A stretch of DNA of 64,000 nt from Orobanche coerulescens (Eukaryota > Streptophyta > Magnoliopsida > Lamiales > Orobanchaceae), in contig CM065802.1 of the NCBI GenBank assembly GCA_033398695.1, positions 207,905,096-207,969,095 on the forward strand. The letters run 5' to 3'. A model generated the notes under the pieces. The model saw only the letters and a list, made by a program, of their open reading frames with translations, did no database searches and was not told where the DNA came from. This document shows positions 1,341-58,109 of the stretch, piece by piece. Made by a program: the position numbers and the translations under genes. Position 1 is the first letter of the stretch; each line of letters begins with the position of its first letter.

Positions 1341-1514
1341 TAGCGCACGCTACCCCTGTTGCCTTGCGTGCGCTACCAATGTGCAGTTAGCGTGCGCTAA
1401 CTCATTTTTGTTAGCGTGCGCTAGCGATGGCAGCAGTAGCCACTGGACCGGTCTCAGCCCCGTTAGCGTGCGCTATACATGTTAGTTAGCGTGCGCTAAC
1501 TTCACATTTTTAAA
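1341..1514 (+). promoter_or_regulatory. Tekay-1 U3 array: six TAGCGTGCGCTA-type words plus TATA-like box
   Basis: Twelve-base words of the form TAGCG-nn-CGCTA start at 1341, 1364, 1388, 1412, 1464 and 1487. The spacing is 23, 24, 24, 52 and 23 bp. The first word is TAGCGCACGCTA, the others its reverse-complement form, one with TT for TA at the left edge. About 9 bp after the last word comes TTTTAAAG, a weak TATA-like box. The 3' LTR repeats the arrangement. Confidence 0.85.
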
Positions 1515-2457
1515 GATCAGGGGCAGTTTAGTTTCAGCATTATTTTTCATTCTTTTCCTTTCCTTCCCTTCCTACGGGCGATTTTGGCGATTCAGAGCAG
1601 ATTGTGGAGAGTAACCGGTGGAGTTCCCTTCCAGTCCAATTCTTGTGTCTCGAGCATAACACACCACCATCTAAACCCATCTCCATCGTCCGAATTCAAG
1701 GTAATTTCTCAGGAACCCTAACTTTGACGGATTTGGGGGTTTTTCCGGGTTTTATTAATTGGAACCGAATTATTCCAGTATGTTAGGATATTCTTCACCG
1801 ATTGTGATTGTTGAATGATTCCAAATCCAATTTCCTTGATTTTAATCCGCGAATTATCGATACGGGGAGATTTTACGTAAACCCTCGCCCGTATCAATTG
1901 ATCGTCTATTGTCGTTATTAGTAATCGGGGTTTTGGGAGTATTCCTTTCGATTGCGATGTGCATTGGGGCGAGTTATGCTAATTCTTCGTTTAGGAACCG
2001 TCGTTGTCCATTCGGATCATCCGTAGTCACTTTTCACTTCCGATCCTTCGAAGATGTCACAAAGGCAAGTACTTTACATTTGTTTACATGTTCTAGTATT
2101 TGAATTATGGCTGTATCGTGGTTGTTGTGGATGGTTATGTGTATGTTCACCTAGGGACGGTCCGACGGGGCCTCTAGGGATACGTATTGCCGTGTGTGTG
2201 CGTATCACGAACTGTGGTTAGCCACCCAGGGATGTCCGACGGGGCTCTACGGGGTACGGTGGCCGTGAGTCTCGTGCCAACGGTTAACTTTGAATTATGA
2301 TTTGTTGGAGATAAGGTGTTTTGTGTGTACATCGTAAATATTCCGGAATATAAAATGTTTTCTAAAATGATTTTTGGCGCATGTATTCATCTGATTAGAA
2401 TGTAGTTCAAATGGATTGTACTTGCACTAGCAGTTGTCGCTAACCCCTTAAATGGGG

Positions 2458-2478
2458 GAAATACTTTTTGTATTTCAG
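2458..2478 (+). other. Conserved LTR hairpin followed by TTTCAG (Tekay-1)
   Basis: GAAATAC, five T, GTATTTC forms a perfect 7-bp stem, and its last C begins CAG|GT, which looks like a 3' splice site. Just upstream is CCCC-TTAAAT-GGGG. The same structure with a different but still complementary stem occurs in Tekay-2 and Tekay-4. Confidence 0.75.
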
Positions 2479-2790
2479 GTATTGATCGTGGGGACAAACG
2501 AGCACTCGGGCCGTATGAGGATGATTGTCAAGCAAGATATTGTACATTATTTGACTTTTCTATGTTATGTCTGTCGGTATCTATTGATGTCTTATTTTGT
2601 GATTTATTTATTATAAAATTGTTTTAAGTACTCGAGTACTTCCTGTTTGAAATTGTTAATGTTGTGTTCCCGTTTTGGGAAATGGATTTGATGTCAAATT
2701 TTAATTGTCGGTTTGTAGTCTTTTATTTTAATTGTCGTTTTATTAATGATAGTTTGTCGTTGTCAAATGTCTTGTTGGTATGTTTGCACA

Positions 2791-2815
2791 GTGGATTCCA
2801 CGGTGTGGGGTCCAC
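2791..2815 (+). other. U5 hairpin (Tekay-1 5' LTR)
   Basis: GTGGATTCC pairs with GGGGTCCAC (9 bp including two G-T wobbles) around a 7-base loop, about 40 bp before the LTR end. The 3' LTR copy is at 9738-9762. Confidence 0.75.
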
Positions 2816-2859
2816 GGCGCTGTAATATGCCCGGAATGTATTTGGGGTGTTACATAATA

Positions 2860-2871
2860 AGGTATCAGAGC
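2860..2871 (+). promoter_or_regulatory. Primer binding site, initiator tRNA-Met type
   Basis: AGGTATCAGAGC six bases after the 5' LTR end; the canonical plant tRNA-iMet PBS is TGGTATCAGAGC. The first base is changed. Confidence 0.85.
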
Positions 2872-3075
2872 TTAGGTTTATGGATACCTCGGCTGACGCT
2901 CATTTGGGTCTAGTTAAGTGTCGTTTTTGGACAGTATCACTGCTATGCCATCATCTCAGTACGCCGGTGCTCGTAAGTTTTCCTAACTTGACTCGTTTCA
3001 CCGTTCTGTTCTATTCCTGTCTTAGTATCTTTTGCTTTTCGCGTTTGAATTGTACTTACCCGTTGCTTCTTCAGA

Positions 3076-4200
3076 ATTCCTGCTGGTAGAGGACGCGGAC
3101 GCGGTCGCGGACGCGGTAGGGGACGTGGCGCAGCCGGTGGGGCGGCCATGTCCGATCACTCGGGAACTGATTCGGCGATGCCCTCTTTGTCGAACAGTGT
3201 CCCCCCTAGTTCCGGAGGTCAGCAGGACCAGTCTGCTAGCTCCGGTAATGCTCATGAGAATGTTGGAGTGGCCAACATATTACAGCAAGTAGCGAACCAG
3301 ATGACGCTGCGGCTCGAGGCCGTTACAGTCGGCCATGCTAATGCCAACCCGGTTCCGCCCTCTGGAGCCGGTAATGATAAGCTACTTGGGACGTGATTCG
3401 TATGCGTCCTCCGCAGCTTTGATGGTGCTTGACCCTTCTGGTTGGGAGAATTGGTTATTCGAGTTGGAGAAAGTGTTTGAGGCTGCTAACTGTTCCGAGG
3501 AGAGGAAAGTACCCATTGCTCAGTACTTCCTCGCCAAGGAGGCAGCGACGTGGTGGCAAGCGGTGAAACCGCGTGACCGGGCAGCTACGTGGGCAGAGTT
3601 TCGAGATCTGATGGAAGATGAATACTGTCCTTGGCCAGTGAAAGAGGGGAGGATCCGAGCCTTCTTTGAGGCTAAGCCCCAAGATGTTCCGATTTCTCAA
3701 GCTATCAAGGACTACAATCAACAGCTGCATTATGTAAGAAACCAAGTCCGCGATGAGCTCGATAAGATCCGCCACTTTGACATGCGGATGAAACCGAGAG
3801 TGCGCCACTACATGTCTGGTCTGGGGTGCACGACTTTGAAAGATTATCAGAATAAGGCGATGGCTTACGAGATGTCGTTTTCTGCGACAGAGACGGCAGC
3901 TGAAGGAAAGAAGCAGAAGACCTCCGGTCAGTTTTCGGGAGGCAAGTCAGGAGGGTATCCGAAGGCTCAGTCCGGTTCGCGAGTCTTCGGGGCCGATCGC
4001 CATCGGTTGGTCGAGAGCAGTTCTAGGTCCGCTCTCGCTGGTTAGTTCGTGGTCCTACATGCTTCAAGCTGATCGTCAAGCCACATGATGAGTGAGTGTG
4101 ATAGGCCTCCGATTCAGTGTCTTGCTTGTGGCCGTATGGGTCACCGTGCTAAGTTTTGTACGGATGCAGCTCGGGCTCCAGTTACTCAGATATCTGCTCC
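3076..4200 (+). pseudogene. Tekay-1 gag (nucleocapsid precursor), frameshifted, start lost
   Basis: Homologous to the gag ORFs of Tekay-2 and Tekay-4. It begins with an Arg/Gly-repeat tail (3079-3125) but has ATT at 3076 where the relatives have ATG. A Ser/Gln-rich linker follows, then a frameshift near 3380-3395. The retrotransposon gag core (about 3420-3900) has a conserved WENWLFELEKVF-like helix and an AATWWQAV motif. After the stop at 4043-4045 a CCHC zinc knuckle of the form C-x2-C-x4-H-x4-C is readable at about 4119-4162 in another frame. Gag would form the cytoplasmic particle and bind genomic RNA. The lost start and the frame breaks make it inactive. Confidence 0.85.
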
Positions 4201-4324
4201 AGCTGCAGGAGAGCCGAGTGTGAATTAGGCAAGCAGGTTCCTCGGCCCGTGAGTTTTGGTAGAGGTCGAGGTCGTGGTCGGCCTTCTAGAGGGGAGCTTC
4301 TAGTGCGGGTGCATTCCGCCCCGT

Positions 4325-7300
4325 GTGTATGAGATGAGGCGAGCCGGAGATCCCGACGCGACGGTTGCTACAGGTACCGTCCACATCCTTGACCATCCTG
4401 TTTCCGTATTGTTCGATTCTGGTGCTACGCATTCTTTTATATCTATGGATTGCGTGCGTCGTCTGCATGTTGATTGCCTTGTTGCTTGTGAGCCTTTTGT
4501 TGTTAAACTTCCTAGCGGGGATAGCATCGTGGGGGATCGTGAGGTTAGAGATTTTCCAGTGAGTATCGCGGGGGAGGGTTTGGCTTTCTAATCTGATTGC
4601 GATAGATATTAGAGATGAGGATTTGATTCTGGGTGAGGATTGGCTCGACCGTCATGGGGCGATCATGAATTATAGAACGAGGACTGTTACGATGTTAGCC
4701 TCTGATGGTACCGAGCATTCTTTTGTGGGGCGTAAGCGGGGTAGTCAGAGATTACTGATCAGCGCTTTGAGGGCGGTGAGGCTTCTTCGGGGAGGTTGCA
4801 CGGGCTATTGGTGTTACGCTTTGAGATCGGAAGAAGGGGGAGTCGAGCTCTCGTCTATTCCGGTAGTATGTGAGTATCCTGACGTTTTCGGATGAGTTGC
4901 GGGTTTGCCGCGGGCGAGAGGTTGAGTTTACCGTCGATTTAGAGCCGGGTGCAGCACCTATCTCTAAGACGCCATACCGTATGGCGCTGCCGAGATGCTT
5001 GAGTTGAAGAAACGATTGGGAGGATTCTTGGACATGGGATATATTCGACCGAGCGCTTCGCCTTGGGGCGCACGGTCCTATTTGTAAAGAAGAAGGATGG
5101 GTCACTTCGTTTGTGCATCGACTACCGAGAGTTGAACAAAGTGACCATCAAAAACAAATATCCACTCCCGAGGATTGATGACTTGTTTGATCAGTTGCAA
5201 GGAGCGACCGTGTTTTCGAAGATTGATTTGAGATCGGGGTATTATCAGCTCCGAGTGAAGGATACCGATATTCCGAAGACGGCCTTTCGGACGAGATACG
5301 GTCACTACGAGTTTGTGGTTATGCCTTTTGGGCTAACCAACGCACCAGCCGTGTTCATGCAGCTTATGAACAAAGTCTTTATCGAGTACCTCGATAAGTG
5401 TGTAGTCGTTTTTATTGACGACATCCTGATTTACTCGAGGAGCGAGGAGGAGCACGCCCGTCATTTGCATATTGTGTTAGATATTTTGAGAACTCAGCAT
5501 CTTTTGCGAAGTTCTCAAAGTGCGAGTTTTGGTTACGGGAAGTCATGTTTCTCGGTCATGTGATCTCGGCCGAGGGTGTTCGTGTGGACCCACATAAGGT
5601 AGAGGCAGTGTTGGATTGGGCGCCGCCCAAGAACGTGAAAGAGGTCCGTAGTTTTCTGGGATTAGCCGGGTATTACCGTAGGTTCGTCGAGGGGTTCTCT
5701 AAACTTGCTCGACCTCGACTCGATTATTACGAAGTCGAGAGAAGTTTGTGTGGACCGATGAGAGGCGAATAGTTTTGAGGAGTTGAAGAAGCGGTTGACG
5801 ACCGCTCCGTGGGCTTTACTGCAGAGTGGTAATGATGGTTTCTCTGTTTATAGTGATGCTTCGGGCCAAGGGCTCGGATGCGTACTTATGCAAAGACGGG
5901 AGGACGATTGCCTATGCTTCCGTCACCAAACCGTATGAATTGAATTACCTACGCACGATCTTGAGTTGGCTTGATTGTGTTTGCGTTGAAAATCGGCGTC
6001 ATTACTTGTATGGCTCGTCGTGTCGATTTTCACCGATCACAAGAGCACGAAGTACATCTTCACGCAGAAGGAGCTTAATATGAGACAGAGGAGATGGTTG
6101 GAACCGATTAAGGATTACGATCTTGAGATCCTCTATCATCGGGCAAGGCTAATGTGGTAGCGATGCCTTGAGCCGGAAATCGGTATCGCTTCGGGCGCTT
6201 GAGTTACTCACGGCCCGGTCGGGACTTCAGCGAGTTTATGAGGTTGAGCATTGAGATTGTCTTGCCCGAGAGTTCGGGCGATTGCGTACTCTTGAGATTT
6301 CTTCATCTCTGGTCGAGGACATTAAATCGGGACAGTTGAAGGACCCGATGTTTATTCATTGCGGGAGAGTGTAGAGAAGGGGAAAGCCGGGATTCGTTAT
6401 TCATGAGGACGGCGTGTTGAGATTCCGAGGTCGGTTGTGTGTTCCGAACGACTCGGAATCGAGACAGAGCATTATGCGAGAGGCTCATGCGTCACCATAC
6501 TCGATCCATCCGGGCTCGAGTAAGATGTATAAAGATCCGAGGAAGAATTTACGGTGGAGCGATATGAAGAAGGAGGTAGTTCGGTTTGTAGCTAAGTGTT
6601 TGACTTGTCGGCAAGTCAAGATTGAGCATCAGTGGCCACCGGATTATTGAAACCGCTTCCGTCCGGAATGGAAGTGGGAGGACATCTCTATGGATTTTGT
6701 CACGAGTTTACCGAGGACGAAGACTAGTATGAATATGGTATGGGTAATTGTAGACCGATCGACTAAGTCGGCACATTTTCTGGGCATCAAGGATACTTGG
6801 GGTCCGTAAAAGTTGGCTCGTATTTTTATCACTCAGATAGTGAGGCTTCATGGTACGCCGAGGACCATTATTTGAGCAGAGATGGCGATTTGTATCGCAT
6901 TTTGGCGGGCGTGCATAAGGCATTGGGGACTCGGCTACGTGTGAGCACTTCATTCCATCCCTGCCGATGGGCGATCCGAACGTACCATTCGGGCGTTCGA
7001 GGATTTGTTGCGCGCGTGTGCGTTAGATTGGAGTAATCGGGAGGATCATTTGGCCTTGATTGAGTTCACTTATAATAATAGGCACGCGTCGATTAAGATG
7101 GCACCATATGAGGCACTTTATGGCCGCGTTGCGATCACCGATATGTTGGGATGAGCCGTCCGATTTGGTTGGCACCGAGCGGATCCGTATTGGAGACGAG
7201 GGAGAAAGTCGAATTGATTAGAAAGAGGATGTTGGCTGCCCAGAGTCGACAAAAGTCTTATGCGGATGTTAGGCGTAGACCTTTGGAGTTTGAGGTGGGA

Positions 7301-7717
7301 GATCACGTTCTGTTGAGAGTATCTCCAACGAAAGGAGTTTTCCGATTCGGGAAGAAGGGGAAACTCAGCCCGAGATATATTGGACCTTTCGAGGTATTGG
7401 AGAGAGTCGGTGAGTTAGCGTACCGTTTGGCTTTACCTCCGTCGCTGAGTCATGTACATAGCGTATTTCACGTTTCCCAGTTGAGGAAGTACGTTACAGA
7501 CCCGTCCCACATTATTGACTTTGGGGACGTGGAGATCGAGAAGGATGTTACGTTTGAAGAGAGGCCCGTCAGAATTTTGGAGCGTCGTGACAAACAGTTG
7601 AGGCACAAAACCATTCCTTTGGTTAAAGTGCAATGGTCGAGGCACGGAGTAGAAGAAGCGACGTGGGAGTTAGAGGAGGATATGCGTTCGAGATACCCCG
7701 AGCTTTTTGATTCTTAA
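4325..7717 (+). pseudogene. Tekay-1 pol: protease, RT, RNase H, integrase, chromodomain
   Basis: Domains in order: aspartic protease with [11 protein letters not shown] (about 4407-4440); reverse transcriptase (about 5050-5560) with the [13 protein letters not shown] and FIDDIL motifs, the two catalytic Asp intact; RT-RNase H connection with [11 protein letters not shown] (5640-5690); RNase H with [10 protein letters not shown] (about 5850); integrase HHCC zinc domain (6480-6640) and core (about 6690-7100); GPF-type C-terminal region and chromodomain (VKVQWSRHG...ATWE) in the intact final ORF 7151-7717. At least six indels or stops (near 4590, 4895, 5560, 5770, 6080 and 6650) break the polyprotein. 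TAA at 7715-7717 overlaps the stem of the following hairpin. Confidence 0.9.
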
Positions 7718-7752
7718 GTTTCGGGACGAAACTTTATTTTAGAGGGGGAGAA
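7716..7752 (+). promoter_or_regulatory. Hairpin plus polypurine tract (Tekay-1)
   Basis: AAGTTTCGGGACGAAACTT at 7716-7734 is an 8-bp perfect stem with a GGA loop, overlapping the pol stop codon. AGAGGGGGAGAA at 7741-7752 is the polypurine tract priming plus-strand DNA, directly adjoining the 3' LTR. Confidence 0.9.
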
Positions 7753-9801
7753 TGTAATATCCGTAATTTTCCCATTTTTAGCAGTTTCCATTTTTGGTGT
7801 ATGTCTATTTTTATCGACTCGCTTGTAACCGTTTCGACATTTTGAATCTATGTTGCTCTTGGAGTTTTTCCATTTGGACGAGTTTTGATGATGTTTTCAC
7901 GTAATTTCATTTTATGACATGTTTTGCCGTATGAACGTTCGATTCTTGTAAAACCCGTTCGTCTTCGTTATTTCTGGGTTTGTACAAGTTCGTATGGTTG
8001 AGTTGGTCTTGTGGAGACTTTCGGTTTGTAAATCCGACGTCGTTTCGTGATTTTCGGGCACTTGGGCCATTTTTGTAATTTCCTAATAGTTTAGGGAATC
8101 TCGTTTTCGTTGTGGCATTATGGACCCTTCGGTGGTCGGAATTGTATTTTTCTTTCAGCGCTTAGCTCCGTCGTCTTATATGCTTCGCGTTCATGTTCCT
8201 GGATTCTGACCTCGTCGTGCATTTCGTGTTTTGTACCTCCGATGCCATCTGCTGACATGAGCGGCAATCTTGAACTGCTGCGTAGGTAGCGCACGCTACC
8301 CCTGTTGCCTTGCGTGCGCTACCAATGTGCAGTTAGCGTGCGCTAACTCATTTTTGTTAGCGTGCACTAGCGATGGCAGCAGTAGCCACTGGACCGGTCT
8401 CAGCTCCGTTAGCGTGCGCTATACATGTTAGTTAGCGTGCGCTAACTTCACATTTTTAAAGATCAGGGCAGTTTAGTTTCAGCATTATTTTTCATTCTTT
8501 TCCTTTCCTTCCCTTCCTACGGGCGATTTTGGCGATTCAGAGCAGATTGTGGAGAGTAACCGGTGGAGTTCCCTTCCAGTCCAATTCTTGTGTCTCGAGC
8601 ATAACACACCACCATCTAAACCCATCTCCATCGTCCGAATTCAAGGTAATTTCTCAGGAACCCTAACTTTGACGGATTTGGGGGTTTTTCCGGGTTTTAT
8701 TAATTGGAACCGAATTATTCCAGTATGTTAGGATATTCTTCACCGATTGTGATTGTTGAATGATTCCAAATCCAATTTCCTTGATTTTAATCCGCGAATT
8801 ATCGATACGGGGAGATTTTGCGTAAACCCTCGCCCGTATCAATTGATCGTCTATTGTCGTTATTAGTAATCGGGGTTTTGGGAGTATTCCTTTCGATTAC
8901 TGATGTCCGTTGGGACTGAGTTATGCTAATTCTTCGTTTAGGAACCGTCGTTGTCCATTCGGATCATCCGTAGTCACTTTTCACTTCCGATCCTTCGAAG
9001 ATGTCACAAAGGCAAGTACTTTACATTTGTTTACATGTTCTAGTATTTGAATTATGGCTGTATCGTGGTTGTTGTGGATGGTTATGTGTATGTTCACCTA
9101 GGGACGGTCCGACGGGGCCTCTAGGGATACGTATTGCCGTGTGTGTGCGTATCACGAACTGTGGTTAGCCACCCAGGGATGTCCGACGGGGCTCTGCGGG
9201 GTACGGTGGCCGTGAGTCTCGTGCCAACGGTTAACTTTGAATTATGATTTGTTGGAGATAAGGTGTTTTGTGTGTACATCGTAAATATTCCGGAATATAA
9301 AATGTTTTCTAAAATGATTTTTGGCGCATGTATTCATCTGATTAGAATGTAGTTCAAATGGATTGTACTTGCACTAGCAGTTGTCGCTAACCCCTTAAAT
9401 GGGGGAAATACTTTTTGTATTTCAGGTATTGATCGTGGGGACAAACGAGCACTCGGGCCGTATGAGGATGATGGGCAAGCATGATATTGTCCAGTATTTG
9501 ACTTTTCGATGTTATGTCTGTCGGTTGCTATTGATGTCTGATTTTGGGATTTATGTATTATAAAATTGGTTTAAGTACTCGAGTACTTCCTGTTTGAAAT
9601 TGTTAATGTTGTGTTCCCGTTTTGGGAAATGGATTTGATGTCAAATTTTAATTGTCGGTTTGTAGTCTTTTATTTTAATTGTCGTTTTATTAATGATAGT
9701 TTGTCGTTGTCAAATGTCTTGTTGGTATGTTAGCCTGGTGGATTCCACAGTGTGGGGTCCACGGCGCTGTAATATGCCCTGAATGTCTTGGGGGTGTTAC
9801 A
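7753..9801 (+). repeat. Tekay-1 3' LTR
   Basis: Near-identical to 806-2854, ending TGTTACA before the TSD. Dyad words start at 8287, 8310, 8334, 8358, 8410 and 8433, the same spacing as in the 5' copy. The splice-site-like hairpin is at 9405-9423 and the U5 hairpin at 9738-9762. Differences from the 5' copy cluster in short patches (for example around 8241-8275 and 8899-8925). Confidence 0.95.
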
Positions 9802-9806
9802 CGCAG

Positions 9807-10542: not shown

Positions 10543-10545
<3 letters not shown>

Positions 10546-13589: not shown

Positions 13590-13594
13590 GAAAA

Positions 13595-18480: not shown

Positions 18481-19392
18481 TGTAATATCCGCATTTTTCC
18501 TTTTTCCGGAATTCCCATTTTTATGTATTTTTCGTTTTTAACGACTAGCTTACAACTGTTTCGACGTTTTGAATCTATTTTATTCTTCGAGTTTTTCCTT
18601 TTGGATGAGTTTCAGAGATATTTTGATGTAATTCCGTTCTATGTTATGTGTTGTTGCATGAACGTTCGATTCTCGCAAAACTCATTTGACTTTGTAATTT
18701 CTTTGGTTACACGAGTTCCTATGGTTGAGTTGTTCGTGTTGTGAGTTTCAGTTTGTTAATCCGACGTTGTATCGTGCTTTTAGGACATTTGGGCTGTTTT
18801 GTAATTTCTTATAAGTTTAGGGAATTTTACTTCTTTGTCGTATTCCGGATTCCCCGGTAGTCGGAATTGTATTTTTCTTCAGTACTCAGCTTCGTCGTCG
18901 TGAATATTTCGCATCTACGCTTTTGGTTATGTCTTTGTGATGCATCCCGACTTCAGACCGCTGGTGCAGTTAACTACATTCAGTAGTATTGAACTGATGC
19001 ATGCATAACGTACGTTATGCATGCTTTCTTGCGTGTGCTATCAGCACCTTCATAACGTATGTTATACCTTGGCGTTAACGTACGTTATGGCCTTCAGCGG
19101 ATTGAGCAGATTGTTCTTCCGAGCCTTTACATACGCTAACTCCTGTGTGTTACATACGTAAAGCTCCATTGTAGCGTACGCTAACTGTCCGACGTAGCGT
19201 ACGCTATCGAACTCGGCGATTTGGAGAGATTGTTCTGCCGAGCCATTACGTACGCTAACACTTGAGTGTTACATACATAATGAGTGTAACATACGTTAAC
19301 ATCATCATGTTAACGTACGTAATGAAGGAACAGGTTTTATAAACCTGGGATGACCTTCACTTCGTCATTTCTTTATTTTTCTTCCTCCGACC
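18481..19392 (+). repeat. Tekay-2 3' LTR, first part
   Basis: Starts TGTAATATCCGC. It carries the dyad-word array and a TATA-like palindrome, then is interrupted by Copia-1 50 bp after the TATA-like box. It continues at 27750. Confidence 0.93.
19006..19347 (+). promoter_or_regulatory. Tekay-2 U3 array: twelve TAACGTACGTTA/TAGCGTACGCTA words plus TATA-like palindrome
   Basis: Words start at 19006, 19029, 19053, 19076; 19127, 19150, 19172, 19195; 19246, 19269, 19287 and 19311. This gives three blocks of four at a 22-24 bp pitch (one interval of 18), with 51 bp between blocks. Both inter-block spacers contain a GATTGTTCT(T/G)CCGAGCC segment. TTTATAAA at 19336-19343 sits inside the inverted repeat CAGGTTTTATAAACCTG and is the likely TATA box, 14 bp after the last word. 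Confidence 0.85.
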
Positions 19393-20884: not shown

Positions 20885-20886
20885 AT

Positions 20887-20899
20887 TGGTATCGGAGCC
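20887..20899 (+). promoter_or_regulatory. Primer binding site of Copia-1
   Basis: TGGTATCGGAGCC two bases after the LTR; initiator tRNA-Met type with one change. Confidence 0.85.
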
Positions 20900-20901
20900 G
20901 G

Positions 20902-26180: not shown

Positions 26181-26240
26181 AGTGGGAGAAATGAGAGACT
26201 ATGTAATAGAGTAGTATACTTAAAAGCATGCTTTGAGTAT

Positions 26241-26251
26241 AAGTGGGAGAT
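26241..26251 (+). promoter_or_regulatory. Copia-1 polypurine tract
   Basis: AAGTGGGAGA immediately before the 3' LTR. A similar block about 60 bp upstream (ATAAGTGGGAGAAATGAGAG) is a partial local duplication of GCTTTGAGTATAAGTGGGAG. Confidence 0.85.
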
Positions 26252-33503: not shown

Positions 33504-33504
33504 G

Positions 33505-33516
33505 TGGTATCGGAGC
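33505..33516 (+). promoter_or_regulatory. Primer binding site of Copia-2
   Basis: TGGTATCGGAGC right after the LTR, initiator tRNA-Met type. Confidence 0.85.
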
Positions 33517-38960: not shown

Positions 38961-39033
38961 CTATCTCAGACTAGCTTGGAGCGTCATCTGGAGAACATGG
39001 GTATTAGATACCATAGTGTGTGGCATTGAGTGT

Positions 39034-39044
39034 AAGTGGGAGAT
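39034..39044 (+). promoter_or_regulatory. Copia-2 polypurine tract
   Basis: AAGTGGGAGAT immediately before the 3' LTR. Confidence 0.85.
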
Positions 39045-46411: not shown

Positions 46412-47242
46412 TGTAATATCCGCAATTTTCGATTTTCGGTAAATTTCTTTTTTTTGTAGGAGTCCGTATAAACGGCTTTCCTATGACCGTTTCGTCATTC
46501 TGAGAATGATTCATTCTACACTTTTTGACATTCGAGTTCATTTCGGTGTCGTTTTGCTGAGTTTCATGCTTTTTGGTGACTTTTCTGCATTTGAGTTTGA
46601 TTCTTGCGAATCTCGTTCAAAACTGTTGTTTCATGTTCTCCGTAAGTCCGTTTAACTTTGTTAGACGTGTTGTGAGCTTTAGTTTGGTTATTCGATCACA
46701 TATCGTGACTTCCGGGCATTTTGGGCCATTTTGTAATTTTCTAAAGTTGTGGGTATCCGCATTCGTATTTGTTGTCTTGACCCTTTTCATGGTCGCGTGT
46801 GAGTTTGATTGTAGCTCAAGCTCTTAGTATGATCTTATTCTGGAGCTTTCCGTGCGTATCTTGAACTTGGTGTTCCGATCGGAGGAGTCCGTTGTTGTAA
46901 CCAGCTTTGAGAGCACTACTGCCGTAGTTCTAGGTGCATTAGCGCACGCTAAGGGATCTCCTTAGCGCACGCTATCGAGCAATAAGGCCAGAGGACAGTA
47001 GTTGGATTCAGGCCCGTTAGCGCACGCTAAGGGTAGGTGGTTAGCGCCCGCTAAGGTGCAGTAGTTAGCGCACGCTACGGGTTTGGTAGCGCACGCTAAC
47101 TGGTACTTCGAGGCAGTCCAGAAGTTACTGGACTGGGTTGGTGTTTTGTCTAGCGCATGCTACGAAGTAGTGTAGCGCACGTTATTGGCAGAATTTAGCG
47201 CACGCTACTGGAAACATAACGTACGCTGACTGTTGGTTGGGT
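46412..47242 (+). repeat. LTR-G: left part of another Tekay-type LTR
   Basis: Begins TGTAATATCCGCAATTTTCG after the Tekay-3 integrase and runs to the Tekay-4 insertion. It has its own dyad-word array but differs in sequence from all other LTRs here. The rest should lie to the right of the window, after Tekay-4; whether it is a full element or a solo LTR cannot be seen. The expected TSD copy on the left would be GCTAC (46407-46411). Confidence 0.82.
46940..47228 (+). promoter_or_regulatory. LTR-G U3 array: ten TAGCGCACGCTA-type words
   Basis: Words start at 46940, 46963; 47018, 47042, 47066, 47087; 47151, 47173, 47196 and 47217. The pitch inside blocks is 21-24 bp, with gaps of 55 and 64 bp between blocks. 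The Tekay-4 insertion point is 14 bp after the last word, where the other families have their TATA-like box. Confidence 0.83.
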
Positions 47243-47741
47243 TGTAATATCCGTGTTTTCTATTTTTGGTAATTTCTATTTTCGGTGTATATTCGTTTCG
47301 GACAACTCGCTTGGCACTGTTTTGGAATTCTGAATCTATTTTGTTCTTGGAGTTTCTCCGTCGGGATGAGTCTCGATGATGTTTTTACGTAATTTCATCT
47401 TGAGTTATATTTTATAGCATGTGTATTTGACTCTCGTTAAACTCGTTCGATTTCGTCATTTTCCTATTTCCATGAGTTCGTATGGTTGAGTAGAGCATGT
47501 TGTGAGTTTCGGATTGTTAATCCGACGTTGTATCGTGATTTTCGGATGTTTGGGCCGTTTTTGTAATTTTCTATAAGTTTAGGGAATTTGTTCCTTGTTC
47601 GATTTTGGTTGTGTACCTCGGACTGTTTTGGGGTTTCCGTACTTCCATTTGGTGTTATTGTTTCCCAAATATCGATTCCTATTGCTTTTATTCTCTTCCC
47701 GGATCATTTTTCATCATTTTGGGACCCAAGGGGGGGTGTGG

Positions 47742-48086
47742 GCCGCGGCACAAGGAATGTGCGCCGGCACACACATTGTCCAGTTTCTGGCCGAGCAGTC
47801 TGTACCGTGGGCCGCGGCACATGCCGGCAGGGCCGCGAGACACTGCCGAGTCACTGCCGCGGCACACTCGTCCGGCCGCGGCACACTCGTGTTGCACTTA
47901 TCGGCCAAACCTTCTGTACCGTGTGCCGCGGCACATGCTGACGGGGTCGCGGCACAATGCCGAGTCACTGCCGCGGCACATTCGTCCGGGCCGCGGCACG
48001 CTGCCGATCACTGGGCGCAGTTTTGGCCCTGTGCCGCGGCACACCTCGGCTGGGCCGCGGCACACAGAGCAGTCAACTCTATAACT
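47742..48086 (+). promoter_or_regulatory. Tekay-4 U3 array: twelve GCCGCGGC(ACA) words plus TATA-like box
   Basis: Words start at 47742, 47763 (decayed); 47811, 47832, 47856, 47875; 47925, 47946, 47970, 47990; 48033 and 48054. Blocks have a 19-24 bp pitch and are separated by 43-50 bp. CTATAAC at 48080-48086 is the likely TATA box, about 18 bp after the last word. The 3' LTR copy (63286-63591) has words at 63286, 63336, 63357, 63381, 63405, 63455, 63476, 63500, 63520, 63563 and 63584. Confidence 0.85.
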
Positions 48087-49522: not shown

Positions 49523-49534
49523 TGGTATCAGAGA
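49523..49534 (+). promoter_or_regulatory. Primer binding site of Tekay-4
   Basis: TGGTATCAGAGA, 11 of 12 bases of the initiator tRNA-Met complement. Confidence 0.87.
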
Positions 49535-49775
49535 CATGTTTTGAATACCTAGGCTGTCGGTAAATTTTTGGGTCTGTCAGTTGCGTCATTAGAGTCAGTC
49601 GTTCAGCCTAATATCATCATGCTACCGTCTTTTTGTGCGACCCGTGGCTGTAAGTCTCCTCGAACTCTTATTTTCTGTAATTCATTTTCTTGCGTTGTTC
49701 GGAATTATGAATTGTGATACCAACTTTGTCAATTGTGAATCTTTCTGATCTTGTTCTTTTCATTCTTCCTTTAGT

Positions 49776-50801
49776 ATGTTGAGAGGTCGTAGTAGACCAG
49801 CTAGGGGACGCGTCCGAGGCCGTGGTCGGGGTGCTGATAATGAAGAGGGCTCACTTTCTCAGTCCACTGCGGACTCAGCCTCTCACTCAGTGTCGTCGGG
49901 TAATAATGCCGACGTCGGGGCTACTGCCGTACTTCAGCAGTTAGTAGCCCAGCTTGCTCAGATAGCTCAGGGTGGACGCCAGAATCCGCCCCCGACACCT
50001 GAAGAGGAAGCTAGTAAGTGGCTTCAGACGGTGACTAAGATGCACCCTCCTCGTTTCTCCGGATCTTCTGACTCCCTCGGTTGGGAGAATTGGCTCTTTC
50101 AGTTGTCCAGGACCTTTGATGCCGTAGCTTGTCCTGAAGACAGGAGGGTACATATTGCCCAATACCTCCTGGATAAGGAAGCTACGGAATGGTGGGAGGC
50201 CGTTGCGCCCCGAGACCGTCCAGCTACTTGGGAAGAGTTCAGGGCTGCTATGGAAGCAGAATATTGTCCGCCGCCAGTCAAAGAACGCAGAATTGTGGAG
50301 TTCTTCACTGCCACACCTCAGGATGTGCCGATTTCGCAGGCTATTATCTCTTACAATCAGCAGTTGGGTTTTGTGAAAGATCAGGTGAGGACGGAGGCCG
50401 ACAAAATCCGTTACTTCAATATGCGCATGAAGCCGCATATCAGGCAGAGTATGGCACCGCTCATGTGTGCCACTTTGAAGGAATACCAGGATCGCGCTCT
50501 AGCGATCGAGATGGCCGTCCCGGAATCAGAGACTGTTTCGGAAGCTAAGAAGCAGAAGACTACTGGCGGATTCTCGGCCGGTAAGGGTGGTCAGTTTTCG
50601 AGGTCTCGTTCTGCCCCTACACCGGGGAAGAGGCCGTTTCATCAGGCCGGTGGATCTCAGGGTAACCGTCACCCATCTGTTGCACTGGCGGGAGAGTTTG
50701 TTTTAATTGCGATCGGCCGAGCACGTTGTGAAGGATTGCCCATTTCCGTTAGTTGCTTGCTTTACTTGCGGACAGACCGGGCATCGGGCAGCTCATTGTG
50801 A
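49776..50801 (+). CDS. Tekay-4 gag, near-intact until the zinc knuckle
   Basis: ATG at 49776 follows the LTR and PBS by 250 bp and starts a 341-codon frame. It has an Arg/Gly-rich head (residues 3-22), a Ser-rich linker, an Ala/Gln helix (residues 50-65), and a retrotransposon gag core (about 85-235) with [21 protein letters not shown] and the [11 protein letters not shown] block. A Ser/Gly/Lys-rich tail follows. Small frame changes near 50690-50715 separate it from the first zinc knuckle, of which CFNC is in a third frame. The second knuckle, [14 protein letters not shown], is at 50758-50799 in the pol frame. Gag assembles the cytoplasmic particle; this copy is truncated at its RNA-binding end. 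Confidence 0.88.
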
Positions 50802-53800
50802 GAGGGCCACCAGGGCCGCTAGAGTTCCGACTACCACTGCCGATCAGAGGGATCACAGCACTCCAGCTACTCATGTTCCGCAGGGTTCGGGTCGTGGTAG
50901 AGGTCGGGGTCAGCCGGATCGCCGTGCAGCATCGAGTTCGGGTTCAGTTCACCCCCGATTGTATCAGATGAGGCGCTCAGAGGAGGCAGACGTTCCGGTG
51001 GCGTCAGGTACCACTCAGATTCTTTCTCATCCAGTTTCAGTGCTTTTTGATTCGGGTGCTACTCACTCCTTTATTGCTTCGGACTGTGTGAGTCTTATTG
51101 GCTTTGACTGCTTGTTTGAGTGTGAACCATTCGTAGTGGGTACGCCTAGCGGGGATCATATGGTTGGGGACCGGGAGGTTAGGGATTGCCCAGTGAGGAT
51201 CAGGAGCCGGGATTGGCCCTCGAATCTCATTGTTATAGAACTTAAGGGTGAGGATTTGATCCTCGGAGATGATTGGTTGGATCGTCACGGTGCTATCATG
51301 AACTATCGGACTCGTACCATCTCGATAGTGGCCGAGGACGGCACCGAGCATACCCTCGTCGGTCGTAAGCCGGGTAGGTCGGGGAGTGTGATTAGCGCCT
51401 TGAAGGCGATGAAACTTCTGAACCAGGGTTGTGTCGGTTACTGGTGTTACGCTCTGAAGGCGGAAGATGGTGGAGTTTATTTGTCGTCTATTCCAGTTGT
51501 TAGTGAATACCCCGACGTATTTCCGGATGACTTGCCGGTATTACCACCACATCGAGAGGTGGAGTTTCCTATTGATCTAGAGCCAAATGCAGCCCCTATT
51601 TCTCGAGCGCCGTACCGTATGGCACCGTCGGAGATGTTAGAGTTGAAGAATCAGTTGGGAGAGTTGCTAGATAAAGGGTATATTCAATCGAGCGCATCGC
51701 CTTGGGGTGCGCCCGTACTTTTTGTTAAGAAGAAGGATGGATCGCTTCGTTTATGCATCGATTATCGAGAATTAAACAAGTTGACCATCAAAAATAAATA
51801 CCCTTTGCCCCGGATTGACGACTTGTTTGATCAGCTTCAGGGGGCGACAGTCTTTTCGAAGATTGACTTGCGATCGGGATACTACCAATTGAGGATTCGG
51901 GACATCGATATACCGAAAGCTGCCTTTCGGACGAGATATGGACATTACGAGTTTGTGGTTATGCCTTTCGGGCTAACCAATGCCCCAGCAGTGTGCATGT
52001 AGTTGATGAACAAAGTTTTTATTGAGTATTTGGACAAATTCGTAGTCGTCTTTATCGATGACATTCTGATCTATTCACGGAGTCGGGAGGAGCACGCCTT
52101 ACATCTCCGGATTGTATTAGACATTTTGAGAGCTGAGCAATTGTATGCGAAGTTCTCTAAGTGTGAGTTTTGGCTCGAGGAAGTGATGTTCCTCGGGCAT
52201 GTGATTTCAGCAGAGGGAGTTCAGGTAGATCCGCAGAAGATAGAGGCAGTGTTGGCTTGGGAGCCGCCTAAGAATGTGAAGGAGGTGAGAAGTTTTCTGG
52301 GTCTTGCCGGCTATTACCGTCGATTTGTTGAGGGATTTTCTAGGATTGCTAAACCGCTCACTCAGTTGCTCCAGAAGACTCAGAAATTCGAGTGGACCGC
52401 AGACAGACAGAATAATTTTGACAAGTTGAAGAGACGACTAACTACCGCACCCGTGTTAGCATTGCCTCAGGGGAACGAAGATTTCGTGGTATATAGTAAT
52501 GCTTCGGGCCTCGGACTCGGATGCGTTTTGATGCAGAGAGATAGGGTTATTGCTTATGCGTCCCGCCAGTTGAAACCGTATGAGGCGAATTACCCCACGC
52601 ACGATTTGGAGTTAGCTGCGGTCGTTTTCGCCTTAAAGATCTGGAGGCATTATCTCTATGGGTCGTTGTGTAGGATTTTTACGGATCACAAGAGCTTGAA
52701 GTATATCTTCAGTCAGAAAGAGTTGAATATGAGACAGCGTAGGTGGTTGGAGCTAATTAAAGATTACGACCTCGAGATACTTTACCATCCGGGTAAGGCT
52801 AACGTAGTGGCTGATGCGTTGAGCCGGAAGCCGATGACGTTACAGATGTTAGAGGTACTTACACCACAGAGTGGGATCCAGCGAGATTTTATCTGTCAGA
52901 ATATCGAGGTTTGGGTTCAGAGAGTTCAGGGTCAGTTATGTACGTTAGAGATCACTTCGTCCTTGACTGATGATATCAAGGCGAAGCAGTATGACGATCC
53001 GTTTTTGGTCCAGTTAAAGGAGGATGTGAGGAAGGGGAAAGCGCCTAGATTTGTGGTTCAGGATGATGGCGTTCTGAGATTTCGCGGTAGATTATGTGTA
53101 CCGAATGACTTTGAGTTGAGGCAGAAGGTTTTGAGTGAGGCTCATACTACGCCTTATTCCATACATCCTGGTACGAGCAAAATGTACAAGGATGTGAGGA
53201 GTAACTATTGGTGGAGCAATTTAAAGACAGACGTTAGCGGGTTTGTGTCGAGGTGTTTGACCTGTCAGCAGATTAACATCGAGCATCAGCGACCCGCGGG
53301 GCTTTTACGACCACTTCCTATCCCGGAGTGAAAATGGGAGGATATTTCTATGGATTTCATTACTAGTATGCCTAAGACTCGAACTGGAATGAACATGATT
53401 TGGGTTGTTGTCGATCGACTAACCAAATCAGCTCATTTTCTGGGTATTAAGGACACTTGTGGGCCAGAGAGACTAGCGCGAGCGTTTATTGCGGAGATAG
53501 TGAGGTTGCATGGGACCCCTAAGAGTATTGTTTCGGATCGTGATGGCCGGTTCATATCACATTTTTGGCAGGCCGTTCATAGAGCTTTGGGGACCGAGTT
53601 GAGACTTAGTACATCCTACCACCCTCAGACATACGGACAGTCCGAGCGGACGATACAGACACTGGAGGATATGTTGAGAGCCTGTGCATTAGATTGGAAG
53701 GATGATTGGGAGTCGCACTTGCCGTTGATCGAGTTCACGTACAACAATAGTTGGCATGCCTCGATCAAAATGGCACCATTCGAGGCATTGTATGGGAGGA

Positions 53801-54393
53801 GGTGTAGATCGCTGTTGTGTTGGGATGATGCGTCCGAGCTGTTTGGTACCGAGCCCGATATGGTAGTTGAGACGAGAGAGAAGATTGCCCTGATTCGCGA
53901 TAGATTGGTGACGGCCCAGAGCCGGCAGAAGTCTTATGCCGATACACGTCGCCAACCGTTGGAGTTTGAGGTGGGAGACCATGTGTTGCTTAAGGTGTCG
54001 CCGACATGGGGAGTTTACCGCTTCGGTCGGAAGGGTAAACTTAGCCCGAGATTTATTGGGTCGTTCGAGATTCTAGAGAGAGTTGGAGAGCTTGCATATC
54101 GGTTAGGTTTGCCGTCGTCCCTGAGCCACGTGCATAACGTATTTCATGTTTCCCAGCTTAGGAAGTACGTACCGGACCCTAGCCATATTATTGATTTTGG
54201 AGATATCGAGTTGGGGCCCGACATTACCTTCGAGGAGAGGCCGATTCAGATCTTAGAGCATCGGGTGAAGCAACTCAGGCACAAAACCATTCCTTTGGTT
54301 AAAGTGCAATGGTCGAGGCATGGGTCTGAGGAAGCCACGTGGGAGACGGAAGAGAGTATGAGATCGGGATACCCCGAGTTATTCGTGTTGTAA
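50707..54393 (+). pseudogene. Tekay-4 pol: protease, RT, RNase H, integrase, chromodomain; two stops
   Basis: One continuous reading frame broken only by TAG at 52000-52002 (CAG in relatives) and TGA at 53329-53331 (TGG in relatives). Zinc knuckle 50758-50799; protease [11 protein letters not shown] with catalytic Asp at 51049; RT with YRELN, FIDDIL at 52051-52068 and both Asp intact; RNase [11 protein letters not shown], where the first catalytic Asp is Asn (AAT at 52498-52500); HHCC zinc domain about 53140-53290; integrase core with MDFI, SDRDGRF and the Glu of ERTIQTLEDML; chromodomain near 54300-54390. Both stops and the Asp-to-Asn change are C-to-T type transitions. TAA at 54391-54393 overlaps the following hairpin. 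Confidence 0.93.
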
Positions 54394-54428
54394 GTTTCGG
54401 GACGAAACTTATTTTTAGGGGGAGATAA
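54392..54428 (+). promoter_or_regulatory. Hairpin plus polypurine tract (Tekay-4)
   Basis: AAGTTTCGGGACGAAACTT at 54392-54410, identical to Tekay-1 and overlapping the pol stop codon; AGGGGGAGATAA at 54417-54428 adjoins the 3' LTR. Confidence 0.9.
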
Positions 54429-54945
54429 TGTAATATCCGTGTTTTCTATTTTTGGTAATTTCTATTTTCGGTGTATATTCGTTTCGGACAACTCGCTTGG
54501 CACTGTTTTGGAATTTTGAATCTATTTTGTTCTTGGAGTTTCTCCGTCGGGATAAGTCTCGATAATGTTTTTACGTAATTTCATCTTGAGTTATATTTTA
54601 TCGCATGTATATTCGACTCTCGTTAAACTCATTCGATTTCGTCATTTTCCTATTTCCATGAGTTCGTATGGTTGAGTAGAGCATGTTGTGAGTTTCGGAT
54701 TGTTAATCCGACGTTGTATCGTGATTTTCGGATGTTTGGGCCGTTTTTGTAATTTCCTATAAGTTTAGGGAATTTGTTCCTTGTTCGATTTTGGTTGTGT
54801 ACCTCGGACCGTTTTGGGGTTTTCGTACTTCCATTTCGTGTTATTGTTTCCCAAATATCGATTCCTATTGCTTTTATTCTCTTCCCGGATCATTTTTCAT
54901 CATTTTGGGACCCAAGGGGGGGTGTGGGCCGCGGCACAAGGAATG
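54429..54945 (+). repeat. Tekay-4 3' LTR, first part
   Basis: Matches 47243-47759, ending just after the first dyad word of its array, where Tekay-5 inserted. Confidence 0.94.
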
Positions 54946-56572
54946 TGTAATACCCGTAATTTTGTTTCCCGGAAATTTTCTATTTTTGGCGGAAGTCCGT
55001 TTTTGACAACTTTCTTGGGACCGTTTCGTCATCCCGAGAATGATTAATTCTACACTTTTTATCATCCGAGTTCGTTTCGGTATCGTTCTGTTGAATTCCG
55101 TGTTCTTTAGCGACTTTTCCACGTATGAGTTCGACTTTGTTAAATCACCATTAATTTTTGGAAACTCCAAAAATTCTGAATCTTGGCAATATTATAAAGC
55201 ATCGAGTTAGCTTTCCAATGGTTCAAACGGTGAGTCAATCGGAGTCCATACGAGGGAGTTATGGTCGAAATAGCTAAGTCACTCTCATTTTCCAGATTCG
55301 CCAAAACCGCCAGACTCGTGCCGCGGCACACTGGCTGAGCCGCGCACACCTTGCCGAGCCACGGGAGCAAATTTTGGGCCTGTTCCGCGGCACACCTCTA
55401 CCGAGCCGCGGCACACATGACAGATTTACCCTATATCTGCGTTTTTGTGCGATTCAACCGATACTTTTTCATTTCTTCACCTTCACACGAGAGAAGGCTT
55501 GAGAGAGGAAGTTTCTTCATCTATCACTTGAGTGGGTGACTTCCTTCATCTATTTTCGATTGTGAAGCCCGGATCATCGCTCTATCGCGTGCTCTTGAAT
55601 CATAGTGCTTGAATCTTCAAGAGGTAATTTCTTCAACATCTTGGATTTCGATTTTGTATTGGGTAATGATGTTTTGGATGTTAAAATCATGGGGTATGAA
55701 GTGATATACGCATGATTATGGACTTGTTGGAGTATTCATCGGATTATTGAAAGATTATTCAAGAACACTTGAATTTTGTATTGGAAATTGGGGATTTTGT
55801 TTGACTTCATCCTTTTAATCCGTAGTAATTTAGATTAGTGATGGATTGATGATTATTTAGGTGTACTCTATCATTTCCATCGTTATTCCACGGTTGGATT
55901 GTATTGGTTCGTCGTTTTGGTTGAGTTATTAGTCGACGCCTTGAAGGTGTTCGACAAAAGGTCTAAGAGGGGGGTTTGTGCGTTGTACGATTATTATTCA
56001 TCGTACGATTGTTGATTTATCATTGATATGACTTAGGGACGAAATCCTTGTGAAGAACTCAAGTGGAACCCTTCCGCTCGTTGTCTTCTTCGTGGTTCAA
56101 GCTTCCCGGTCGAACCGTGTTCTTCGGGATCTTGAAGAACGTTTATTAAGGCAAGTATACATTTATGATTATACGTTCGACTTTGAAAGTATGAAATATT
56201 GATGGTATGATTATTTCTAGCCACTCCGGGACGGCCTATGGTCCTCTCGAGGGTTTCGTAGCCTCTGGTGCGATTCCATGGTTGATATGAACGAACCGTT
56301 TCTACGGCATTCATATGAAATAATGTTGGCATGTAATGAACGAACCGTTTTGACGGCATTCCTACATGTAACGGCGTATGATATGAACGAACCGTTTCTA
56401 CGGCATTCACATACGTCTTGAGATTTTAGTCATTCCGGAATACTAGTCTTAAATTGATGAATTGACGGATATTGATGAATTGACGGATTACATTTACTTT
56501 ATTGTCGAGGAGTATTATGTTTCATATTGTTATACTTGCACTAGCTATTCGACGGCTAACCCCTTTATGGGG

Positions 56573-56595
56573 GAAATACGTTTCATGTATTTCAG
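56573..56595 (+). other. Conserved LTR hairpin followed by TTTCAG (Tekay-5)
   Basis: GAAATAC, loop GTTTCAT, GTATTTC. In the 3' LTR (62884-62903) one inserted A weakens the base of the stem. Confidence 0.72.
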
Positions 56596-56907
56596 GTTCC
56601 AGGAGAGCGGACAGGTGGGTACCGGGTCGGCATGAAGATGATGGGCAAGTGTGATACTGTGTTTTGTCTCCGGTTATTTTCTTGGATTCCTCCATTCAGG
56701 TTGTTGTACTGGAATGGATTTTTAAATACTCGAGTATTGTATTTCAGTTTCCTTGATGTTCCGGCCTGTGTTGCCGAGGTATTGATTTGTGCAGTGATGT
56801 ATATGGTTTCATTGGTTATGGTTTTTGAATACCATTTGTATCGTCTTTCTTTCTATTGTATGTAGACCTTATCGGTCAAGTGTATAGTTCCGCGTATGTT
56901 TAGCCTT

Positions 56908-56930
56908 GTGGGTCCCACGGCGGGGCTCAC
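56908..56930 (+). other. U5 hairpin (Tekay-5 5' LTR)
   Basis: GTGGGTCCC pairs with GGGGCTCAC (9 bp with G-T wobbles) around an ACGGC loop; second copy at 63216-63238. Confidence 0.72.
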
Positions 56931-56969
56931 GGCGCTGTAATATACCCTGAGTAACTTGGGGGTGTTACA

Positions 56970-57492
56970 GAATATGGTATCAAAGCTTAGGTTTATGGAT
57001 ACCTAGGCTGTCGGTCTTTTGGGTCGATTGAGTCGGCATTTGCCCACAGTATCACTACTCTGCCATCATCACAGTGCGACCGGTACTTGTAAGTCCTCTC
57101 ACTCTTCTCGTATTTTTCTTAATCGTTTCGTTTATAGCTTGGTATTCTTGGGAATTGGTCACTTCGAGAATGTGCGATTCGGATTATACTTACGCACGTG
57201 TGTGCCTTTGTAATGTTGGTGAAAGTAGGAAGAATCGTGGCCGTGGTCACGGACGTGAACTCTTCCTTGAGATTTTGTTAAGTTGCTAATGGCGATAATG
57301 GTGTGTATCGATATTATGTTGAGACTTTGTTTAGAGTCGCATGCTAGTATCACGGAGATCTTCGACTTCGCAGACTTGTAAGTATGTTGTTCAATTATTC
57401 GAAAATTCTTGGTGAAATTGAATTCCGTTGAAATGTTGTTTGTATTTAGTGATTGTAAGTTTCGAGACGAAACTTATTTTTAAGGGGTAGAG
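56970..57492 (+). other. Tekay-5 internal segment X with PBS, gag-start remnant and polypurine tract
   Basis: PBS TGGTATCAAAGC at 56975-56986. An Arg/Gly-coding trace (RKNRGRGHGRE) at about 57224-57262 resembles the N-terminus of Tekay gag. After that nothing coding. The right end has the hairpin AAGTTTCGAGACGAAACTT (57457-57475) and an AAGGGGTAGAG tract abutting LTR-F. Confidence 0.7.
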
Positions 57493-57686
57493 TGTAATAC
57501 CCGATTTTCGGATATATTTTTTTCGTTTATATATTGGATATCGTGGATGGTTAATTATGCTCGAGGACGTTGTGAACGTATGACAATGTTATTGAATTGA
57601 GTATATGTATTGATTTTGCCGTATGCTCGTATTTGGTATGTCATGACTTTGGACAGAATTGTTGAAATTGGCTAAGTATGGAATTA

Positions 57687-58109
57687 TTACGACGTTAATA
57701 AGGTGAGATTACGACGTAAGATTGCCATGGTTACGCACGTTAAGGCTAAGGTATTACGACGTAACAAAGGCATCGGACGTAACCGAGTCCTCGTCGGCAG
57801 TGGGACCTGCTTTCGCAACTTTCGGCGGAGGATGTTGACAGTGAGTCAACGCACGCGTGTTACGACGTTATACGGACGTGTTACGACGTTATACAGACGT
57901 GTTACATACGTAACACAACCATTGTACCGTAGCAAGTCAACCGCATATTACGACGTTATATGGTATGGGTTACGACGTAATGGATCCGCACGGAATGAGA
58001 CAAAGGAGTTGGTTACGTACGTTATGGATATTGGATTACGTACGTTAAAGTTGTTACGTACGTTAAGAAAGGACACTTACGTACGTAATGAGAGTGCAAT
58101 TTATATATT
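57687..58109 (+). promoter_or_regulatory. LTR-F U3 array: TTACGACGTTAA/TTACGTACGTAA words plus TATA-like box
   Basis: Clear words start at 57687, 57709, 57731, 57754; 57860, 57881, 57902; 57948, 57970; 58013, 58036, 58054 and 58077. The pitch inside blocks is 18-23 bp. Decayed words may fill the gap at about 57775. TTTATATATT follows 12 bp after the last word. Confidence 0.82.

Follow-up and report, generated by a model that had tools for sequence, protein, structure and literature searches.

A 64,000-nt stretch of the Orobanche coerulescens genome (contig CM065802.1 of assembly GCA_033398695.1, positions 207,905,096 to 207,969,095; here called the window) is a nested stack of long terminal repeat (LTR) elements. 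Six of its LTRs carry rows of short dyad-symmetric words in their U3 region, and this raises the question of what such rows do for the element. We put the probability at roughly 0.57 that they serve as a promoter-proximal platform to which a dimeric activator, probably encoded by the host, would bind to drive transcription of the element. The activator platform is suggested by four features taken together, namely adjacency to a TATA box, dyad symmetry, regular pitch and selection that benefits the element. That the binder would come from the host is suggested by the plain gag-pol content of Tekay-4 and by the reuse of words. The name Tekay is a label taken over from the first-pass annotation and is not derived from a reference tree of reverse transcriptases or integrases.

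Dyad arrays and their position in the promoter

The arrays reported earlier for six LTRs were all recovered in place, as word matches and in the raw sequence (Table 1). The accompanying statement that the words differ holds in that several words occupy one layout, but Tekay-1 and LTR-G share one: TAGCGTGCGCTA of Tekay-1 and TAGCGCACGCTA of LTR-G are reverse complements of each other, a single word on opposite strands. Moreover, GCCGCGGC forms the core of TGTGCCGCGGCACA, and words of 11 and 12 bp are mixed in LTR-F. The reported range of 4 to 13 copies per array is too narrow at its lower end, Tekay-5 having three clear sites. From inspection of six words, the word types appear to fit the scheme TNNCG-(0-2)-CGNNA.

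The arrays stand out from shuffled sequence. A detector blind to the words, which accepts every 12-mer with five or more of six dyad pairs and counts within 2 mismatches, was run on array stretches picked with knowledge of the arrays and on 200 dinucleotide shuffles of each. It returned 6 sites for Tekay-1 (null maximum 2), 8 for Tekay-2 (3), 9 for LTR-G (2), 11 for Tekay-4 (4), 3 for Tekay-5 (1) and 6 for LTR-F (4). When the input was the first 0.8-1 kb or so of each LTR, with a CpG demanded and 100 shuffles, a dyad word exceeded every shuffle in five of the six window LTRs, while Tekay-5, with three sites, tied with the maximum. As controls, the stretches of LTR that precede the arrays of Tekay-1 and Tekay-4 gave no site, and window positions 2000-2800 gave two against a null maximum of 4. 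Two non-Tekay LTRs (starting at 19393 and 31528) gave two sites each under the CpG condition, within the null; without it they yielded 12 and 5 AT-rich dyads, above null maxima of 6 and 4 (40 shuffles), so the CpG condition matters. Shuffled sequence thus did not produce similar periodic dyads.

For a comparison between families, 12 LTR starts were chosen for their position among the first 100 listed (the genome has 295,749); all lie within the first 1.35 Mb of contig 1, where the TAGCG positions were already known when the choice was made. Nine of them (L105, L106, L107, L108, L109, L110, L111, L112 and L114) exceeded every shuffle, L109 with an array of 19 words, which brings the Tekay-type LTRs above all shuffles to 14 of 18, window and sample combined. 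Further words came to light in L108 and L109 (TTACGGCCGTAA) and in L111 (CTATCGGCCGATAG); degenerate TTACG words can be made out by eye in L104, another sampled LTR. Across the 3.646-Gb genome, within which the window lies, exact sites number 1,309,842 for TAGCGYRCGCTA (108 for the pattern read backwards, also a dyad), 492,776 for TWACGTACGTWA (control 15,356), 201,659 for TTACGSSCGTAA (477) and 101,126 for GTGCCGCGGCAC (26). The four patterns sum to 2,105,403 exact sites, with membership in Tekay LTRs not shown for every one. The LTR type is itself very abundant, its exact start TGTAATAYCCG being the one found 295,749 times (backward control 1,552).

Pitch is regular, as reported earlier. Over 15 LTRs, 80 of the 88 word-to-word distances below 40 bp measure 18-25 bp, which is also the range of the steps within blocks. 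Genome sites were considered for spacing as listed, at the start of contig 1. There, 98 of 100 TAGCG sites are clustered, and the 18-25 bp share of adjacent distances is 45/85 for TAGCG (distances below 200 bp), 45/77 for TWACG, 16/52 for GTGCCG and 21/54 for TTACGSS. The commonest steps are 23-24 bp for TAGCG, 23-24 with a recurring 18 for TWACG, 21 for GTGCCG and 22 for TTACGSS. Among the listed exact sites of these four words, adjacent distances of 12-17 bp do not occur, and those of 26-40 bp number 1, 0, 0 and 2; at 3 mismatches, off-register matches 11-13 bp apart appear in Tekay-4 and LTR-F.

In 15 of 18 LTRs, a TATA-like box (any of nine hexamers, loosely defined) follows the end of the array at 10-18 bp, compared with 0.4 of 18 expected at random positions. 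No box lies within 40 bp in L104 and L106, and the third exception, L010, has a gap of 22 counted from a wrong site; in the window copy of Tekay-2 the gap is 15 as against this faulty 22. Dimer-like sites adjoining the TATA box are in keeping with the dimeric platform proposed in the first-pass annotation, and multiple sites upstream of a TATA box are what characterizes a U3 transcription-factor array. The same position bears on a role in RNA, in which the words would act as self-complementary stems in the 3'-end U3 of genomic RNA during dimerization or packaging. By inspection the words are indeed self-complementary, but words with an odd centre (TTACGACGTAA) or with TG or CA centres pair poorly and the adjacency to the TATA box points to DNA, which makes such a role very unlikely.

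The layout recurs in other copies of the same families. In sets of 9 Tekay-1, 31 LTR-G, 31 Tekay-2, 11 Tekay-4 and 11 LTR-F sequences, each including the window copy (counted also as a locus in the Tekay-1, LTR-G and Tekay-2 sets), it is kept with few exceptions, and the pitch is not lost. Many other Tekay-2 copies have 12 words, with last steps of 23, 18 and 24 where the window copy has 41 and 24, and intact LTR-G copies have more words past the point at which Tekay-4 cuts the window copy. Since these copies are at least 88% identical to the query, retention within a family amounts by itself to inheritance. The earlier idea that the spacing itself is selected found no backing in the indels (33 single-copy and 28 shared within arrays, 71 and 33 outside; p=0.09, in the opposite direction); 19 of the 28 shared array indels come from LTR-F, where the mixture of 11- and 12-bp words blurs the alignment.

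Selection on words and their possible exchange between LTRs

Within 14 arrays, words have a mean identity of 0.87 (range 0.74-0.97), whereas the seven spacer bases average 0.38, compared with 0.29 after shuffling. Spacers exceed shuffles (p<0.05) in Tekay-1, L110, L113 and, marginally, L109. In the other ten arrays they do not exceed shuffles at this level, which is not the pattern of simple tandem repeats, where whole units including spacers are alike; most units are accordingly not fresh duplicates. Neutral growth of the arrays by slippage would suit the four arrays with similar spacers, as well as the partial tandem repeats seen in LTR-G, Tekay-4 and LTR-F. It fits neither the ten remaining arrays, with their similar words and dissimilar spacers, nor the depletion of shared variants described below, and we regard it as highly improbable.

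Divergence between presumed LTR pairs, assigned to one element by distance only, is 0.004-0.055 for Tekay-1 (median of all copies 0.044), 0.059-0.085 for Tekay-2 (0.092) and 0.015-0.071 for LTR-G (0.092). Much of the variation accordingly arose after insertion, so that single-copy variants should be near neutral and shared variants older. On this basis, single-copy and shared variants (the latter in at least two copies) were compared in a McDonald-Kreitman-like test over base-stratified alignment columns in sets of 22, 30, 30, 11 and 11 copies. At A/T columns, single-copy variants are about as frequent in words (40/288) as they are in spacers (72/404; p=0.26) or outside the array (226/1299; p=0.26). 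Shared variants, by contrast, occur at 6/288 word columns as against 38/404 in spacers (p=0.0002), being 4.5 times rarer in words, and 142/1299 outside (p=1e-6). The ratio of single to shared variants differs accordingly (p=0.006 against spacers, 0.0005 against outside), and the result holds when words are defined in seven alternative ways (p=0.002-0.019 and 0.0001-0.0011, respectively). The same trend is seen at C/G columns outside CpGs, where shared variants stand at 10/129 against 77/368 (p=0.003) and the ratio tests are weaker. Word bases are under purifying selection before insertion, while the element replicates, and no effect is detected afterwards. Selection that acts through replication suggests that the element benefits. 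A pooled test of all non-CpG columns was set aside as confounded by base composition, word non-CpG bases being mostly A/T; in it, Tekay-4 ran in the opposite direction (word 0.048, spacer 0.029).

CpG columns behave differently according to the reference: shared variants are no fewer in words (68/219) than in spacers (20/93, p=0.23) and fewer than outside (137/268, p=0.004), while single-copy variants are alike (74/219 in words, 87/268 elsewhere). These figures bear on the view that the words are host silencing sites, whose CpG dyads attract methylation or recruiters of RNA-directed DNA methylation. The density of CpG in the words speaks for it, as do the variants at word CpGs, which are mostly transitions (in Tekay-2, 146 of 164 minor alleles). 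Yet word CpGs have no excess of single-copy variants and fewer shared ones than the outside, and word bases are kept during replication, although an element should not keep sites for a host repressor; we therefore judge this view unlikely.

The words turned out not to be family-specific as first thought. One fully supported clade of the outer-U3 tree (T1, L114, T2, T4 and L107) holds three words, each of which recurs outside it, and the starred branches of this tree force at least two changes each for the TAGCG, TWACG and GTGCCG words. Trees with equal labels were built from the same 17 rows, leaving out L106, whose promoter anchor is a guess; many forks are open in both, and branches of the outer-U3 tree are long. 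On the outer-U3 tree, 72 of 200 shuffles score as low as the actual words, which are thus not clustered there; the promoter tree, with 8 of 200, shows a modest degree of clustering. A stronger clustering on the promoter tree (0 of 200) proved to be a labelling artefact caused by pooling TTACGTACG with TTACGGCCG and adding a near-copy of LTR-G. Different words are found in LTR-G and L108, even though these two LTRs pair on the promoter trees (97/98; 93/99) and share about 84% identity across their first 340 aligned columns. L110 and L113 resemble each other over roughly their first 175 bases and once more from the last words onward, and are unlike in between.

Elements of the window and their coding content

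The window elements and arrays are compiled in Table 1. Relatives reach up to 66% among the 120 matches listed of 7,988, and those with names are nearly all from plants.

Table 1. Elements, LTRs and dyad arrays of the window (steps in bp)
Feature	Position	Strand	Details
Tekay-1 element	806-9801	+	LTRs 97.5% identical
Tekay-1 5' LTR	806..2854	+	pair 7753-9801; 5-bp target duplication CGCAG
Tekay-1 array, 5' LTR	1341..1498	+	6 words TAGCGYRCGCTA, one with a mismatch; steps 23,24,24,52,23; TATA-like TTTAAA at 1509
Tekay-1 array, 3' LTR	8287..8444	+	same array as 5' LTR
Tekay-2 3' LTR	18481..19392	+	cut at 19393 by Copia element
Tekay-2 array	19006..19322	+	11 words, at most 3 mismatches to TAACGTACGTTA/TAGCGTACGCTA; blocks of four; steps 23,24,23 / 51 / 23,22,23 / 51 / 41,24; TATAAA at 19338
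Copia element (RVT_2)	19393-27744		5-bp target duplication CGACC; sits in Tekay-2 LTR
Second non-Tekay LTR element	31528-41010		5-bp target duplication CTATC
LTR-G, U3 part	46412..47242	+	Tekay-4 cuts inside its array at 47243
LTR-G array	46940..47228	+	9-10 words TAGCGCACGCTA
Tekay-4 array, 5' LTR	47740..48063	+	12 words on GTGCCGCGGCAC, at most 3 mismatches; steps 19,50,21,24,19,50,21,24,20,43,21; CTATAA at 48079
Tekay-4 gag-pol	49749..54393	+	gag 49749-50801; pol stop-interrupted; end 36 bp upstream of 3' LTR
Tekay-4 3' LTR array, first part	54928..54947	+	Tekay-5 splits array
Tekay-5 array, 5' LTR	55318..55414	+	3 clear words GTGCCGCGGCAC; TATATC at 55432
LTR-F	57493 to about 58868		start about 57493, between Tekay-5 LTRs
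LTR-F array	57687..58088	+	13-14 sites, TTACGACGTWAA (11-12 bp) and TTACGTACGTWA; TATATA at 58102
Tekay-5 array, 3' LTR	61646..61736	+	4 GCCGCGGC cores
Tekay-4 3' LTR array, rest	63286..63591	+	beyond Tekay-5

Tekay-4 encodes gag, protease, reverse transcriptase, RNase H, integrase and a C-terminal chromodomain in the order typical of chromoviruses, with an SH3_Tf2-1 domain and a weak chromodomain match among the pol domains. The chromodomain matches of Tekay-4 (22.6 bits) and Tekay-1 (22.9) both lie below the Pfam cut-off of 25.1, and the integrase core match of Tekay-4 is likewise under its cut-off. Two stop codons break the single pol frame; gag and the chromodomain end are open.

This coding content bears on the proposal, made in the first-pass annotation, of self-recognition by an element-linked factor. 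Such a factor, VANC-like or encoded by an additional 5' open reading frame (ORF) of a related Tekay, would bind the array and lift silencing of its own family. According to the parts of the literature consulted, motif arrays that change between families mark VANC targets (PMC5735166), and in sunflower a 5' ORF whose product has a predicted nuclear signal is conserved in some Tekay elements (PMC11728184). In Tekay-4, however, the non-LTR sense ORFs of at least 90 amino acids comprise gag, pol and a single further frame within gag, and the antisense ORFs of 185 and 167 amino acids, like the array-spanning ones of 235 and 172, have no Pfam match. The 246-amino-acid 5' ORF of Tekay-1 is gag, and one of 115 amino acids has a single sub-threshold match, EBNA2_Core. 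Pfam thus revealed no DNA-binding ORF beyond gag-pol in Tekay-4 or in three Tekay-1 ORFs, other families not having been fully checked. Since words also recur across outer-U3 clades, self-recognition seems rather doubtful, although a partner element elsewhere might supply the factor, and for Tekay-4 the proposal is left unsupported.

Both insertions of one Tekay element into the LTR of another fall inside arrays (at 47243 and 54946), as would be expected if arrays were landing pads that attract nested insertions. Genome-wide there are 1,574 junctions of a word followed by an LTR start, but 3,294 would be expected from random insertion, a figure that falls to about 1,647 if 3' LTRs make up half of the LTR starts. 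With a count at or below expectation, and some listed junctions counted twice, there is no enrichment; targeting of integration was rejected and is extremely unlikely.

Tekay-5 (54946 to about 63280) splits the Tekay-4 3' LTR within its array. A polypurine-like stretch precedes LTR-F inside Tekay-5 and, LTR-F lying between the Tekay-5 LTRs, Tekay-5 looks composite or non-autonomous. Its LTRs contain, downstream of the promoter, a 47-bp unit repeated 2.6 times (56283-56409 and 62612-62738) with an inverted repeat of its own, TGATATGAA...TTCATATCA. In the sequence L041, two arrays of the LTR-G type lie at 15-400 and 2130-2300, about 2.1 kb apart, which suggests adjacent LTRs or a nested copy.

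A possible activator platform and related systems

On the platform model, each dyad would be filled by a protein dimer that recognizes the half-site TNNCG (TAGCG, TAACG, TTACG, TGCCG or TATCG), with 0-2 bases between the halves, and neighbouring dimers would cooperate. The two CpGs per word suggest that methylation may interfere with binding, in which case copies that are silenced would lose it, much as in the methylation-sensitive switch proposed in the first-pass annotation. Words might change by recombination of array-plus-promoter modules or, alternatively, by conversion, in which all sites of a row would take on a different word from the existing set.

Several observations weigh against this model. 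Spacing of the half-sites by 0, 1 or 2 bases is odd for one dimer family, the link between word and promoter is weak under equal labels (the 8 of 200 shuffles above), and indels show no selection on pitch. Three of the 12 sampled LTRs (L103, L104 and L113) are not above shuffles, L113 tying with the maximum. At C/G columns outside CpGs, the difference between words and spacers is borderline (p=0.046; other definitions p=0.047-0.157), and Tekay-4 alone has no constraint at C/G columns. The variant tests pool families, take columns as independent, leave relatedness uncorrected and draw on few shared variants. In addition, only part of the words fit the core site of NAC factors, T[G/A]CGT as given in a source seen in part (PMC4081100): by inspection it is present in TTACGT and TTGCGT words and absent from TAGCG, TGCCG and TATCG words. 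This speaks against NAC as the single binder.

It is tempting to speculate about a kind of password system, in which paralogous dimeric factors would read a small set of interchangeable dyad words. Each word that succeeds would multiply into decoy sites across the genome (1.3 million for TAGCGYRCGCTA), and new families would evade competition and silencing by exchanging the entire row for another word while keeping its geometry. We regard this as tentative and on balance improbable. If the activator platform is real, promoter geometry can outlive its words. More than 2 million binding-site-like palindromes in one genome would then be a load for any matching factor, and titration of factors by transposons would become directly testable.

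In line with the first-pass annotation, no system of this form was met in the literature searched, which comprised the titles and starts of abstracts listed, most subscription journals lying outside. Among the listed papers that contain the letters GCCGCGGC or GCGCACGCTA, no title or abstract start dealt with such arrays, and "palindrom" is absent from the text of the sunflower Tekay paper (PMC11728184). As far as that source was seen, sunflower Tekay elements are chromoviruses, some with an extra protein and a predicted nuclear signal; by contrast, no additional 5' ORF was seen in Tekay-4.

The remaining comparisons likewise rely on sources seen in part. Stress-responsive LTR boxes such as the heat-shock elements of ONSEN are host factor sites in U3 that drive a plant LTR, but a long, evenly pitched dyad array or an exchange of words is not described for them there (PMC11656987). 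The Tax-responsive repeats of human T-cell leukemia virus type 1 and bovine leukemia virus are 21-bp U3 units with a CpG palindrome bound by cellular CREB and ATF (PMC7601775). They comprise three units of one word (TGACGTCA) and depend on the viral co-activator Tax, whereas the arrays described here have 3-19 units and at least five words. The VANDAL/VANC arrays of Arabidopsis likewise consist of short, dense, family-specific non-coding motifs that change together per family (PMC5735166, PMC10398659), although in our arrays the TAGCG, TWACG and GTGCCG words are not private to one family. VANC motifs (YAGTATTAY) are non-palindromic, share one orientation and are part of a DNA transposon that codes for the protein binding them (PMC5735166, PMC10398659). 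The arrays of the window, by contrast, are dyads next to a TATA box in LTR retrotransposons in which no binder was found. If our reading is correct, they would represent the LTR retrotransposon counterpart of the motif-array systems known from DNA transposons.

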